Source of the DNA: an uncultured Candidatus Saccharibacteria bacterium | Lineage (GTDB): Bacteria > Patescibacteriota > Saccharimonadia > Saccharimonadales > Saccharimonadaceae | NCBI GenBank assembly: GCA_947306745.1 | Contig: CAMZHH010000009.1 | Location: 1-37,397, forward strand | Reading direction: 5' to 3' | DNA: 37,397 nt | Part shown: piece by piece, positions 9,401-31,098 of the stretch | Position numbering within the stretch: the first letter of the stretch is position 1 | Layout: each line of letters begins with the position of its first letter | Position numbers and translations under genes: made by a program | The notes under the pieces: model-generated | Told to the model about the DNA's origin: nothing | The model's database searches: none | Seen by the model: the letters and a program-made list of their open reading frames with translations, nothing else

Positions 9401-9429
9401 TTGACTTTTTAGCCAAAGTGTGCTATAAT
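9401..9429 (+). promoter_or_regulatory. Strong sigma70-type promoter
   Basis: TTGACT (9401-9406), a 17-nt spacer and TATAAT (9424-9429) precede the 188-residue orphan gene. The predicted leader is about 77 nt. Confidence 0.8.
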
Positions 9430-27898: not shown

Positions 27899-29251
27899 TT
27901 AATATGGTAGTAGCGATTGATACCAAAGTTGTAGTTCTTCTAGTACGTAAGAATCTTTACCCTCGGCTGCTAACTGTTGAATAGCTTTAATATATTCATT
28001 TTGCTTAGCTTTAATGCGAGCGAGGCGATACTCTTCCCATTTTTGATGTTCAGATTCCGTCAAGCTACGCTCAAAGTTGCGCGCTTTGTAATGCAATAAT
28101 AAATCTGGTAGACGCGGGTCGTGAAAATCTGGATGAAAATCTGCCAAGTCGTTTAATTTTGCAACGCGCACAGCATCGCAACGAGTCTTATCGGATGGAT
28201 CCAAGAAGCCGTCATAAAGCGCGGATTCCGAATCGACTGCTGGCGGAAATTCTGGGCGCTCTTCATTTTGACTGCGCATTTTTTCAATAAAATCTGGATG
28301 CGCCAAAAGTGCGGTTTTATTCTTTTCGATTTGTTCTTTAGTTAAGCCGATTTTCTGCCAGCCATCACCCTGCTCCAGTACGCCAAGTGGCGCCACGGCT
28401 GGACAGTGATTGTATTTTAGCTCTTTAACGGTCGGATAGAATTTCGGCTCTTCTTGCGCAAGCAATTCGTCAAGATTCTGACGCAAATCAAAGACCAAGA
28501 CATTGCCATTCTTGGCTGGAGCAATCGGAAAAGCGACAGACGTTTTATTATGCTCACTACTATACTGGCCACAAGAATAAACGAAAGGTTGTGGCTTATC
28601 GAGATTAATCATTTGCTGAACGGCACGCTTTTCGCGCATCTTAAATAGGTAATCATACAACTGTGGCTGTTTTTCTTTAATTAGACGCGTCACGTCAATT
28701 AAAGCTTCTACGTCGGAAAGCGCATCGTGTGCATGTTTATGTTCAATACCGTTCAGCTTCGTAATGAGCTCGAGGCGGTTTGTAGCTTTGCCCTCGCTCG
28801 TAACTGGCCATTCGATTCCCTCCGGACGCAAGGCGCGCGTCATGCGCACTGCATCGAGCATATCCCACTTACTGCGACCGTCTTTCCACTGCCATTCATA
28901 TGGGTCATAAAAACAGCGCCAGAAAATATGGCGCATAAATTCATCATCAAAGCGAATCGAGTTGTAGCCGATTGCAATAGTACTAGGCGTAAAAATCTCA
29001 TCCATCACATATTTGCAAAACTCTGCTTCTGTAAAGCCGTCCGTCAATGTCGATTGTGGCGTGATTTTCGTAACCATAATCGCATATGGGCTCGGAAGCG
29101 TGTCTTCGCTCATTTTAACTAAGATATTAACTGGATCGCCGACAGGTTCAAGATTCATATCAGTACGTTGGCCGGCGAACTGCATAATGCGGTCAGCGCG
29201 CGGATCGAGGCCGGATGTTTCTAGGTCATAAAAGAAGAAGGTCTGTTCCAT
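27899..29251 (-). CDS. sbcB: Exodeoxyribonuclease I (SbcB type)
   Basis: This 450-residue DEDDh nuclease should digest single-stranded DNA 3' to 5' in recombination and mismatch repair. It follows E. coli ExoI closely: FYDLETSGLDPRADRIMQFA with the first Asp/Glu, ITPQ, GYNSIRFDDEFMRHIFWR, FYDPYEWQW, KWDMLD, ALRPEGIEWP, the long insert, and NGIEHKHAHDALSDVEALI with the last His/Asp. The C-terminal SH3-like and helical regions are present, and the length is a little below the roughly 475 residues of E. coli. ExoI is best known from Gammaproteobacteria, so its presence here may reflect old transfer or an underrated spread. It stands alone behind TGC TAAGAT placed 6 nt before the ATG. Confidence 0.92.
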   Translation of the reverse strand: MEQTFFFYDLETSGLDPRADRIMQFAGQRTDMNLEPVGDPVNILVKMSEDTLPSPYAIMVTKITPQSTLTDGFTEAEFCKYVMDEIFTPSTIAIGYNSIRFDDEFMRHIFWRCFYDPYEWQWKDGRSKWDMLDAVRMTRALRPEGIEWPVTSEGKATNRLELITKLNGIEHKHAHDALSDVEALIDVTRLIKEKQPQLYDYLFKMREKRAVQQMINLDKPQPFVYSCGQYSSEHNKTSVAFPIAPAKNGNVLVFDLRQNLDELLAQEEPKFYPTVKELKYNHCPAVAPLGVLEQGDGWQKIGLTKEQIEKNKTALLAHPDFIEKMRSQNEERPEFPPAVDSESALYDGFLDPSDKTRCDAVRVAKLNDLADFHPDFHDPRLPDLLLHYKARNFERSLTESEHQKWEEYRLARIKAKQNEYIKAIQQLAAEGKDSYVLEELQLWYQSLLPY

Positions 29252-29257
29252 ATCTTC

Positions 29258-29266
29258 ATCTTAGCA
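29258..29266 (-). promoter_or_regulatory. Extended -10 of sbcB, leaderless type
   Basis: TGC TAAGAT lies 6 nt before the ATG on the minus strand, with no ribosome binding site between. Confidence 0.5.
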
Positions 29267-29284
29267 CAAGTTTTTGAGCATGGG

Positions 29285-29314
29285 AAAAGGCCCGCCATTA
29301 ACGAGCGGACCTTT
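29285..29314 (-). terminator. Terminator overlapping the end of the membrane protein gene
   Basis: On the minus strand AAAGG-CCGC and GCGG-CCTTTT form an interrupted stem that includes the last codons and the stop of the gene at 29298. Confidence 0.65.
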
Positions 29315-30062
29315 CGTAGTAATTCTGATTCATTGCAAGTGTCGGAAATCCGATGATGACAGTCTGGTCGTCCTGAGTTGTAGTAGTGCGCGCTTTTGCT
29401 GCAGCTTTCTCTTCGGCAGCAGCCTTCTTTTCAGCGATTTCGCTATCGACAGCCCACGCAAATACGCTAGCGAAGAATGCGATAGATTTTCTTTCACCGA
29501 AAAGCGGTGCAACTCCGCGGGTAAGATACCTCCCACCCAGAACAGCAGCAGTATGAATCTGACCAACACGAACTAAACCGTAGGCAAGGTAGGCGTAAGC
29601 CATACCCAAAACGCCAACACAGTTAGCAGCAATAATGTCGCCCCAAGCAGCGGAATCATTAGCTGAAAGGCTATTGATCCAGAACTGAACTAAGCCAGTC
29701 CAATGTTCTTTCGCGAAAACAGCTACGAACACGATAGCAGCGATTGCCGCAATAACGCGATCGAATGTTGCGCTATGGAACATGATAACAGAGTCACATC
29801 TGCGAAGTTCACTCTTGCGAGCAGCCTTGCGATAAGCACCCATAGTTACCTTTTTTGCCTGAGCAACTTTTGCCTTGATGTAGCGCGGAGCATTTTCAGG
29901 AAGTGTCTGAGCGCCATTTGCGGAACTCTTTCTCTTCCTCATCGGAACGATGCGAACACTCTTGCGTCCAATCAGATATACAGCGGCCAAAACCGCGATT
30001 GCGATTACTACTACCTCCCAACTAAATTGTGCATGAAATGCATGATACCAAGAATTTGCCAT
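29298..30062 (-). CDS. Membrane protein of unknown function with long structured leader
   Basis: I do not recognise this protein of 254 residues. A first helix lies near the N-terminus (VVVIAIAVLAAVYLIG, about 16-31) and is followed by a basic loop of some 65 residues (MRKRKSS, KVAQAKKVTMGAYRKAARKSELRR). Two or three more hydrophobic segments follow (VIAAIAAIVFVAVF, ANCVGVLGMAYAYLAYGLV, and a weaker one near FFASVFAWAV). The tail carries an Ala/Glu/Lys helix (EIAEKKAAAEEKAAAKA) and a TQDDQTVIIGFP end. I prefer the ATG at 30062, four nt after GGGTGAG, over a GTG at 30071. The gene has a strong promoter about 210 nt upstream and a leader with four hairpins, so it is probably regulated at the RNA level. 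Confidence 0.72.
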   Translation of the reverse strand: MANSWYHAFHAQFSWEVVVIAIAVLAAVYLIGRKSVRIVPMRKRKSSANGAQTLPENAPRYIKAKVAQAKKVTMGAYRKAARKSELRRCDSVIMFHSATFDRVIAAIAAIVFVAVFAKEHWTGLVQFWINSLSANDSAAWGDIIAANCVGVLGMAYAYLAYGLVRVGQIHTAAVLGGRYLTRGVAPLFGERKSIAFFASVFAWAVDSEIAEKKAAAEEKAAAKARTTTTQDDQTVIIGFPTLAMNQNYYERSAR

Positions 30063-30268
30063 TTTACTCACCCTTTCTCTTTCGAGACCTTTCTCTTTTT
30101 CACGAGCTGCGATAGCTTCGTGTACAGCTCGCCTGCATTTCTACCGGCCTCTGAAGGTAAGTAGGAATGCAGGTGGCTGCTTTGAAAGTGGATGAGATGG
30201 AACATCAACAATTAGGAGATGAATCGAACTACTTTCAAAGTGCGTAACCGCATATTTTCAACGGTTAT
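30063..30268 (-). promoter_or_regulatory. Long structured 5' leader, candidate cis-regulatory RNA
   Basis: The leader runs from the predicted start at about 30268 to the ATG at 30062. In order on the minus strand it holds TAACCG/CGGTTA (30262-30267/30245-30250), CTTTGAAAGT/ACTTTCAAAG (30231-30240/30180-30189, perfect 10 bp), CCTGCATT/AATGCAGG (30166-30173/30132-30139) and CGAGCTG/CAGCTCG (30125-30131/30103-30109). A purine-rich stretch with the ribosome binding site follows. I recognise no known riboswitch class. Confidence 0.6.
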
Positions 30269-30274
30269 GCATCT

Positions 30275-30303
30275 ATTATATCACACATGGCCTAAAAAGT
30301 CAA
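30275..30303 (-). promoter_or_regulatory. Strong sigma70-type promoter
   Basis: On the minus strand TTGACT (30298-30303), a 17-nt spacer and TATAAT (30275-30280) drive the membrane protein gene through the long leader. Confidence 0.8.
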
Positions 30304-30336
30304 GTATGCTTATGCTTATACCTCTATATAGGCACC

Positions 30337-30362
30337 AAAAAGCCCGGTTTTGAGGCCGGGCT
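30337..30362 (-). terminator. Terminator of the pheS-pheT-FKBP operon
   Basis: On the minus strand AGCCCGG pairs with CCGGGCT and a run of T follows. Confidence 0.8.
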
Positions 30363-30372
30363 GAGTGTTTTT

Positions 30373-31098
30373 TTACTTCAAGCCGTACATCTTTGAGTAA
30401 AGCTCTTCAAGGCGAGCTGGATACTCGATCTCTTCTGGCTTTTCAACCAACATCACAACGAATTTTAATGGGCTGTTAGCTGGAATGTCGTTCTGTGCCT
30501 CTGAGCCATAACCCAAGACTGACGGAATTGCAATTTCCCGGACACCACCAATGCGCATACCGTCCCAGATATAGCCTTCCTCGGTACCCTTCGCGACACC
30601 CTCAAGCCAACCTTGGATCAAATTCGTGCTACCTGGGAGCGGCGAGCTAAGTTTAGTCGGATTTTCGTAATTGTCAAAAGATGAGTCAAATACCTTCTCG
30701 TCAGATAGCCAGCCGATATAATAGGCGGCATAATCGACATCGTCGAGATCCTCGATTTGACGACCGTCACCAACCTTCAAGTCGGTCACCTTGAGCTGAG
30801 TCACGTCAGCGGCGTTATAGGCGCGGACGCGATCACGATAAACCTTGAAAGTATCGTAATATTTAGCGGAAAGTTCGTCTGCTTGCGCATTAACCTTCTG
30901 CTGATATTCATACATCAAGTTTTGCATTTCATCCTGCTCTTCAGTAGTTAAGCCGCCAACCGTTTTCGCACCAACGCCTTGATACTGAAGCACAATGCCA
31001 GCGTATAGCGCGAAGGTCGAACCTAACATTAAAATCGCAATTAAAACGATGATAATTCGCTGCTTGGGCGACGTCTTCTTTTCTTCGTTTACAATCAT
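30373..31098 (-). CDS. Membrane-anchored FKBP-type peptidyl-prolyl isomerase
   Basis: The 241-residue protein has a basic start, one hydrophobic helix (IIIVLIAILMLGSTFALYAGI, about 15-35), a helical spacer (about 50-90) and an FKBP domain from about 100. FKBP blocks are KVFDSSFDNYENP, LIQGWLEGV, GMRIGGVREIAIPSVLGYG and SPLKFVVMLVE. The domain should lie outside the membrane and help fold exported proteins. The usual DGxxFDSS motif is spelled DEKVFDSS here, and the GWxxG core is present. Helix and spacer suggest an anchor with a stalk. It starts 21 nt after pheT behind GGAGGT, and it shares the pheS-pheT transcript and terminator, though no direct link to tRNA charging is evident. Confidence 0.88.
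   Translation of the reverse strand: MIVNEEKKTSPKQRIIIVLIAILMLGSTFALYAGIVLQYQGVGAKTVGGLTTEEQDEMQNLMYEYQQKVNAQADELSAKYYDTFKVYRDRVRAYNAADVTQLKVTDLKVGDGRQIEDLDDVDYAAYYIGWLSDEKVFDSSFDNYENPTKLSSPLPGSTNLIQGWLEGVAKGTEEGYIWDGMRIGGVREIAIPSVLGYGSEAQNDIPANSPLKFVVMLVEKPEEIEYPARLEELYSKMYGLK

Follow-up and report, generated by a model that had tools for sequence, protein, structure and literature searches.

Translational RNA thermometers such as ROSE and FourU mask the Shine-Dalgarno (SD) sequence by pairing. In the icaR mRNA of S. aureus, as set out in part of PMC3868564, an anti-SD UCCCCUG segment base-pairs with the SD and hinders ribosome loading, and the mRNA is an RNase III substrate. Passages of PMC5371410 on E. 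coli adhE and lambda cIII describe RNA structure that occludes the ribosome site and is relieved by RNase III cleavage. Leaders can also carry a hairpin and a short motif, as with the boxB-boxA leaders bound by NusB/NusE in rRNA operons and suhB, for which a section of PMC5725501 gives the boxA consensus GYTCTTTAANA.

For the Patescibacteria, part of a 2024 perspective (PMC11665869) calls the mechanisms that govern differentiation completely unknown and names translation regulation as likely to be key. We analysed a leader that lies ahead of a membrane protein gene in a 37,397-nucleotide stretch of DNA (hereafter the window) from an uncultured Candidatus Saccharibacteria bacterium. No description of this leader was found in the literature searched, which lay mostly outside subscription journals, and a term search of PMC8040213 found no mention of Saccharibacteria, TM7 or Patescibacteria. 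Judged by comparative sequence analysis, 33 of the 45 genomes compared from its genus carry the leader as a conserved RNA element with covarying pairs. We consider it probable that it represents a new family of structured 5' leaders that lower or gate translation of the downstream gene, with RNase III as the likeliest means of relief.

The leader and its promoter

The original prediction proposed a TTGACT-N17-TATAAT promoter feeding a leader of about 206 nucleotides. Both parts are borne out. The promoter lies on the minus strand at 30303-30275, with an extended -10 element and 11 of 12 consensus matches (Table 1), and the leader measures 206 nucleotides given a start 7 nucleotides past the -10 element, the putative start site. 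A start site just upstream of the ATG, which was to count against a long leader, finds no place in the promoter scan, since 30303-30275 is the sole promoter-like site at 9/12 or better on either strand of 29200-30450 (shuffles average 1.5).

Table 1. Features of the leader unit in the window, from the upstream gene boundary to the end of the membrane protein gene.
Feature	Position	Strand	Basis or remark
Terminator-like hairpin between the upstream FKBP-type gene and the leader unit	30341..30362	(-)	Terminator scan
Promoter TTGACTTTTTAGGCCATGTGTGATATAAT (TTGACT-N17-TATAAT, extended -10)	30275..30303	(-)	11/12 consensus matches
5' leader, ~206 nt	30063..30268	(-)	Start ~30268 inferred, 7 nt past -10
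H1, 5'-terminal hairpin	30245..30267	(-)	Fold; structure conserved
Single-stranded motif GCACTTTGAAA, consensus GNACNU	30233..30243	(-)	Directly 3' of H1
H2, second hairpin of the original prediction	30181..30240	(-)	10-bp inverted repeat at both range ends; unformed in predicted fold, unconserved
Anti-SD strand CTCATCC of long-range helix P2	30190..30196	(-)	
H3, long conserved hairpin	30124..30180	(-)	C.A mismatch 30165/30140; covariance-model match 30126-30179
H4, small hairpin	30101..30122	(-)	By eye only in source genome and close relatives G202, G213, G159
SD region GAAAGGGTGAG	30067..30077	(-)	P2 uses GGGTGAG (30067-30073) as its 3' strand
Membrane protein ORF, 254 aa, ATG 30062, stop codon end 29298	29298..30062	(-)	ATG aligned with relatives
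Hairpin over the stop codon, terminator-like by eye	29285..29315	(-)	Fold z -2.99; absent from terminator-scan output

The promoter, strong and of vegetative type, belongs to a very uniform class, TTGACTTTTT-N8-TGTGNTATAAT, which includes a T run after the -35 element and TGTG before the -10 element. Members of this class occupy 59 places in genome G000 at three mismatches or fewer, 20 of them exact, and the reversed pattern used as a control has no match in the same genome. A second place within the window is 9401-9429 on the plus strand. DNA searches found similar promoters in 22 of 151 family genomes, the source genome counted.

Predicted transcript starts behind this promoter class were inspected at 30 of the 59 loci. 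A 5' hairpin followed by a GNNCNUU-like motif was also seen in some of these other transcripts (L156, L149, L159, L163 and L143 in G000), examples of the motif being TGCACATTTCGAG at L156 and AGTTCCTTAAGA at L149. The L156 leader is 168 nucleotides long and, by eye, has a long hairpin of its own.

Predicted fold of the leader in the window

The mRNA strand of the leader folds at -67.6 kcal/mol compared with -48.6 (sd 4.1) in shuffles (z -4.63), and none of 200 dinucleotide shuffles is as stable. The original prediction had four stems of 6 to 10 base pairs in series. Four inverted repeats do exist, but they do not form such a series. The third is a hairpin of 22 pairs (H3), and the second (H2), with arms CTTTGAAAGT and ACTTTCAAAG (30231-30240 with 30181-30190), has a pairing probability of 0.00 at the two pairs checked on the mRNA strand. 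In place of the H2 repeat, the long-range helix P2 is predicted, in which 30190-30196 pairs with the SD region at 30067-30073 through seven pairs with predicted probabilities of 0.92-0.98. Conservation likewise extends to only some of the four hairpins, namely H1 and H3, whereas H2 is unconserved and H4 is confined to close relatives. H2 as a conserved switch hairpin is not supported, given these pairing probabilities and a z of 0.4 in 26 of 31 rows of the comparison described below.

The original prediction had also recognised no known riboswitch motif, and Rfam searches agree. At the curated gathering score there was no match in the window leader, the sole match in the window being a tRNA, and none in the loci of 20 relatives. 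A permissive search (E up to 5) gave sub-threshold matches only, mostly to microRNA-type hairpin models.

Genomic context and recovery of homologous leaders

A DNA search with the leader across 151 family genomes matched, beyond itself, only the promoter and the first bases (query 1-56 of 256), and leader conservation is therefore visible solely through gene order and structure. The membrane protein is recognisable in six of 199 family genomes, the source included, all six of which belong to the same genus. Because the order of FKBP-type gene, promoter, leader and membrane protein is constant in all six, the FKBP gene was taken as an anchor.

This anchor is present in 44 of the 45 genus genomes, the remaining one (G201) having no FKBP match. 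Behind it, 31 loci carry the promoter, a long leader with H3 and an ORF. A further two genomes complete the set of 33, with the leader located behind an insertion in G094 and with the remainder of the leader on another contig in G211. The insertion in G094 (L047, L122), which lies between the FKBP gene and an intact leader, is insertion-sequence-like and has terminal inverted repeats TTAACCCCTCAAGTGCAACA. In seven genomes (G136, G197, G165, G177, G189, G109 and G068), the first 450 nucleotides contain a different gene or lack such a promoter, and two named ruminant-gut Saccharibacteria also lack the unit at the FKBP-exonuclease position. Thus, the space between the FKBP and exonuclease genes appears to hold the leader unit as a facultative module.

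Four genomes (G208, G222, G217 and G205) carry short leaders of 56-65 nucleotides that keep H1 and have no H3, and H3 is therefore not indispensable at the FKBP locus. These loci bear on the proposal that the structures merely stabilise or insulate a constitutive mRNA, with a 5' hairpin as stabiliser, a spacer hairpin and an unregulated output. Short leaders that retain H1 alone fit that proposal, as does the frequency of 5'-terminal hairpins behind the same promoter class at the 30 of 59 loci inspected. However, it leaves unexplained both the covariation between anti-SD and SD and the conserved sequence of the H3 core, and we regard it as unlikely.

Conserved anatomy across the genus

The 31 long leaders, folded individually, give the same general picture. 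The order of elements is H1, which begins at the first nucleotides, the GNACNU motif, a C/U-rich anti-SD strand, H3 (about 23 pairs), the SD and the AUG. A loss of the stems in relatives was to speak against the original prediction, and for H1 and H3 the opposite was found, with extensive covariation throughout the genus. Permutation tests were run on 26 of the 31 rows after five near-duplicates had been dropped. Cognate pairing exceeds swapped pairing for the arms of H1 (z 10.9) and for the outer arms of H3 (z 13.7), in each case with none of 5000 permutations reaching the observed value.

In an alignment of 25 H3 sequences, 92.2% of cells are paired compared with 38-46% in slid versions. Changes on both sides occur at 20 of 23 pairs and the other three pairs never vary, and the covariation score is 0.722 versus 0.281 in shuffled alignments (none of 500 shuffles reaches the alignment values). 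The sequences align on invariant G-C, C-G and U-A pairs beside a conserved mismatch position, at which 20 of 31 rows have C.A, four have a different mismatch and seven form a pair. The longest hairpin in the leader has 21-28 pairs in 28 of 31 rows and 32 and 35 pairs in two others; the longest hairpin picked in G200 is H1, and its H3 core was identified separately.

Of 44 leader rows (31 long, four short and nine extra), 36 have a GN[AT]CNT motif within positions 13-36, one of these matches (G128) lying inside H1. In 500 shuffles of positions 13-41, the mean was 6.0 rows and the maximum 12. Together, H1 and the motif may constitute a wider 5' module that extends beyond this leader family.

Upstream ORFs that start with ATG and span at least five codons are present in 26 of 31 rows and vary in place and length. 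Only four of 31 rows have an upstream ORF preceded by an SD, and hence there is no conserved leader-peptide ORF. An attenuator based on a leader peptide was rejected for these 31 rows on this ground.

Sequestration of the Shine-Dalgarno sequence

Pairing between anti-SD and SD was evaluated by searching solely for helices that join the sequence preceding H3 to the sequence following it. This design makes H3 enclosed in 31 of 31 rows by construction, and the claim of sequestration rests instead on permutation tests and unconstrained folds. In the permutation tests (26 of 31 rows), the best helix reaches 18.15 between cognate partners compared with 14.50 between non-cognate ones, a fit equalled in none of 20,000 permutations, and a separate test gave z 6.4 (0 of 5000). 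Examples of these paired segments are UCUCUCCU/AGGAGAGA in G011, ACCUCCA/UGGAGGU in G210 and GCCUCC/GGAGGU in G120.

In the unconstrained folds, the SD has a median unpaired probability of 0.05 versus 0.32 when the upstream part is shuffled, and 26 of 31 leaders fall below their shuffled value. In the other five, pairing of the SD does not exceed that in shuffles, the unpaired probabilities being 0.88 (G225), 0.68 (G215), 0.45 (G159), 0.41 (G213) and 0.33 (G200). The GAAAGG part of the SD in the window is partly paired, at 0.36 unpaired versus 0.44 shuffled. Because anti-SD and SD co-vary, most members are predicted to have a paired SD. By this predicted pairing with a covarying upstream strand, the RNA is an SD-sequestering leader, five of 31 rows excepted.

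An SD that is paired to an upstream strand resembles the situation in RNA thermometers, and the P2 helix could in principle melt as the temperature rises. However, SD accessibility is predicted to be nearly flat, with unpaired medians over the 31 leaders of 0.02 at 20 °C, 0.03 at 30 °C, 0.04 at 37 °C, 0.06 at 45 °C and 0.10 at 60 °C, and a thermometer of this kind would have no need for H3. A thermal switch is thus very improbable.

A metabolite riboswitch, in which an alternative fold would free the SD, might be suspected from a conserved structured leader before a membrane protein gene and from the conserved single-stranded motif. Ungapped helices were searched for such a fold, and no conserved alternative pairing was found for the anti-SD strand with the 5' region (z -0.6) or for the motif region with the sequence leading up to H3 (z 0.4; 26 of 31 rows). 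The motif and the H3 loop give a weak signal (z 2.2, 90 of 5000) that is one among several tests and is not claimed. Since Rfam also yields no match at threshold, we consider a riboswitch quite unlikely.

Distribution of the H3 hairpin

A covariance model of the H3 hairpin (R1), built on 25 rows, matches in 32 of the 45 genus genomes. Seven of these were outside the training set (G199, G204, G210, G213, G224, G094 and G211), the first four being near-duplicates of training rows. R1 misses G216, which has a deviant H3 core. Extending the search to 344 family genomes adds G040 (genus g40, E 1.4e-12) and G260 (genus g2, E 3e-4). In G094, G211 and G040, the match is accompanied by the promoter, H1, the motif and a paired SD (unpaired 0.11, 0.00 and 0.17, respectively). 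In G260, the promoter and both hairpins, H1 and H3, are present and the SD is again paired (unpaired 0.11), but the motif pattern is unmatched.

Searches of 392 order genomes and 379 phylum genomes added just two matches at E <= 0.001, G460 (E 1e-6, another family) and G705 (1e-4); filtering was stricter in these large searches and the genomes were a sample, so weaker members could have escaped detection. Neither these two nor a weak match in G230 (0.007, from the family genomes) was counted as a member, as their surroundings lack the promoter-H1-SD arrangement. Viral contigs gave no match to one exact H3-core pattern. Mimicry of rRNA was considered and rejected, R1 giving one match at E 0.46 over the rRNA loci of seven genomes, two of which were covered by longer operon stretches of 6.2-6.4 kb. 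We place the leader as a new RNA family at the level of the genus that extends a little further within the taxonomic family and belongs to a known general kind, the SD-sequestering leader.

Leaders before other genes

Second copies of the leader are found in G221, G204, G215 and G199, and in G218 on the strand opposite to the R1 match. By BLAST at 1e-3, none of the ORFs behind these second copies or behind the G040 and G260 leaders matches the membrane protein family. The second-copy ORFs of G221 and G204 are similar to one another (37%, 119 aa, with two hydrophobic segments), the G040 ORF has three hydrophobic segments, and those of G260 and G218 have none. The corresponding ORFs of G215 and G199, which are short or broken by unread bases, were left unjudged. 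Unpaired probabilities of the second-copy SD are 0.64 (G221), 0.17 (G204), 0.33 (G215), 0.96 (G199) and 0.00 (G218), and the SD is poorly masked in two of the first four (G221 and G199). In the G218 copy (L118, minus strand), anti-SD, hairpin and SD run together as a single, very long and nearly perfect hairpin, and the ORF that follows at once is a different one that looks soluble.

As similar leaders precede several different genes, the element looks like the signal of a small regulon rather than the private feedback of one protein.

The membrane protein family

Twenty-four family members align with the window protein at 16-44% identity, and 32 of 35 ORFs fall in one similarity cluster. This divergence indicates that the leader structure is kept while the protein changes fast. 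Complete ORFs encode 129-255 amino acids with 2-4 hydrophobic segments, and a basic segment is visible by eye between the first and second membrane helices. Pfam searches with 25 members found no family common to more than one of them, and NCBIfam searches with five gave nothing above cut-off; this is a membrane protein family without known relatives in the libraries searched.

A structure model of the window protein (mean pLDDT 85.5) predicts one membrane helix, a basic segment, small strands and two long helices. It gave no PDB match at E <= 0.001, and the best Foldseek candidate on re-examination (Z 6.3) is within the chance level for helical bundles. A likeness to ZorA or TolQ reached only Z 4-5, within chance for helical folds, and is not claimed.

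Membrane proteins, a masked SD and a 5' hairpin also bring to mind type I toxin-antitoxin units, in which a translation-inert mRNA is paired with an antisense RNA. Type I toxins are usually smaller than 129-255 amino acids, and this difference in size speaks against such a unit here. In addition, the promoter scan (threshold 9/12) found no promoter-like site on the opposite strand of 29200-30450, and we judge a toxin-antitoxin arrangement extremely unlikely.

Proposed mechanism

The original prediction reasoned that such a leader is likely to be regulatory. The covariation of H1 and H3 and the predicted pairing of the SD with a covarying upstream segment support this view. Covariation is strong; the regulatory output and the factor involved are inferred. 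In the default state, the SD would be paired to the anti-SD strand and translation would be poor, with H1 probably protecting the 5' end of the RNA. Given that no conserved switch pairing, no marked thermal opening in the predicted folds, no conserved upstream ORF and no antisense promoter-like site was found, a trans-acting factor that recognises the H3 arm would be the most economical means of setting the output.

By analogy with adhE, the likeliest form of this control would be a cut in H3 by RNase III, an enzyme encoded in the source genome. Cleavage would leave the anti-SD fragment untethered from the SD, the fragment would be lost and translation would start, as in E. coli adhE. The predicted fold offers a long double-stranded arm 5' of the SD, as expected of an adhE-like leader. 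When H3 is cut in silico, the SD of the 3' fragment opens only to a moderate extent (median 0.34), and so the RNase III step is offered as a hypothesis.

The H3 core shows more sequence conservation than RNase III is known to require. This excess favours a protein that reads sequence, and the H3 bases that are conserved may just as well be there for a binding protein. Such a protein, which might be the encoded membrane protein itself, would bind the H3 core and stabilise or open the SD helix. The invariant G-C, C-G and U-A pairs next to the mostly-C.A position would suit it, as would the basic segment between membrane helices 1 and 2 of the ORF family. However, similar leaders also precede ORFs with no detectable similarity, which speaks against self-binding, and no candidate binder was identified. 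We therefore treat a sequence-reading protein as a possible, though doubtful, alternative to RNase III cleavage.

A broader and more speculative proposal is that the H1-GNACNU-antiSD-H3-SD arrangement defines a multi-gene translational regulon in epibiotic Saccharibacteria, through which RNase III or a reader of double-stranded RNA would time the production of fast-evolving membrane proteins; we put this forward with considerable reserve. If it is true, one factor would time a set of membrane proteins, for example at the change between host-attached and free cells. A leader with predicted SD masking, genus-wide covariation, occurrence before several genes and a structure that persists while the protein behind it diverges offers a testable handle on differentiation in Patescibacteria, and it could supply a native part for translational control in organisms with few genetic tools.

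Comparison with known systems

The Saccharibacteria leader shares with ROSE and FourU elements the masking of the SD by pairing, but its predicted fold stays closed to 60 °C.

A likeness to the boxB-boxA leaders lies in the placement of a short motif immediately after a hairpin and in the coincidence of G1, C4 and T6 with boxA, as the consensus appears in the section of PMC5725501 used here. However, position 3 of the leader motif is A rather than T in 33 of 36 rows. Scored against that GYTCTTTAANA consensus, the motif averages 6.7 of 10 versus 5.7 when shuffled (44 rows), and the rRNA leaders of the same genus differ from it, carrying UUAACAAUUUAG rather than the leader motif in seven of seven cases. 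By eye, these regions upstream of 16S rRNA (L123-L129, seven genomes) share UUAACAAUUUAG, UGUGCAAUU and CGUCAGUCUUUUAU and represent a candidate antitermination region.

In icaR, according to the same part of PMC3868564, the SD is likewise paired with a C-rich segment from within the same mRNA. That segment resides in the 3' UTR, whereas its Saccharibacteria counterpart belongs to the 5' leader and has a conserved hairpin between it and the SD. With adhE and lambda cIII, the leader would share the availability of a long double-stranded element, cleavage being hypothetical here. No sequence relation to these RNAs is expected. The Saccharibacteria element differs from both in its recurrence ahead of several genes and in its conserved 5' hairpin and motif.
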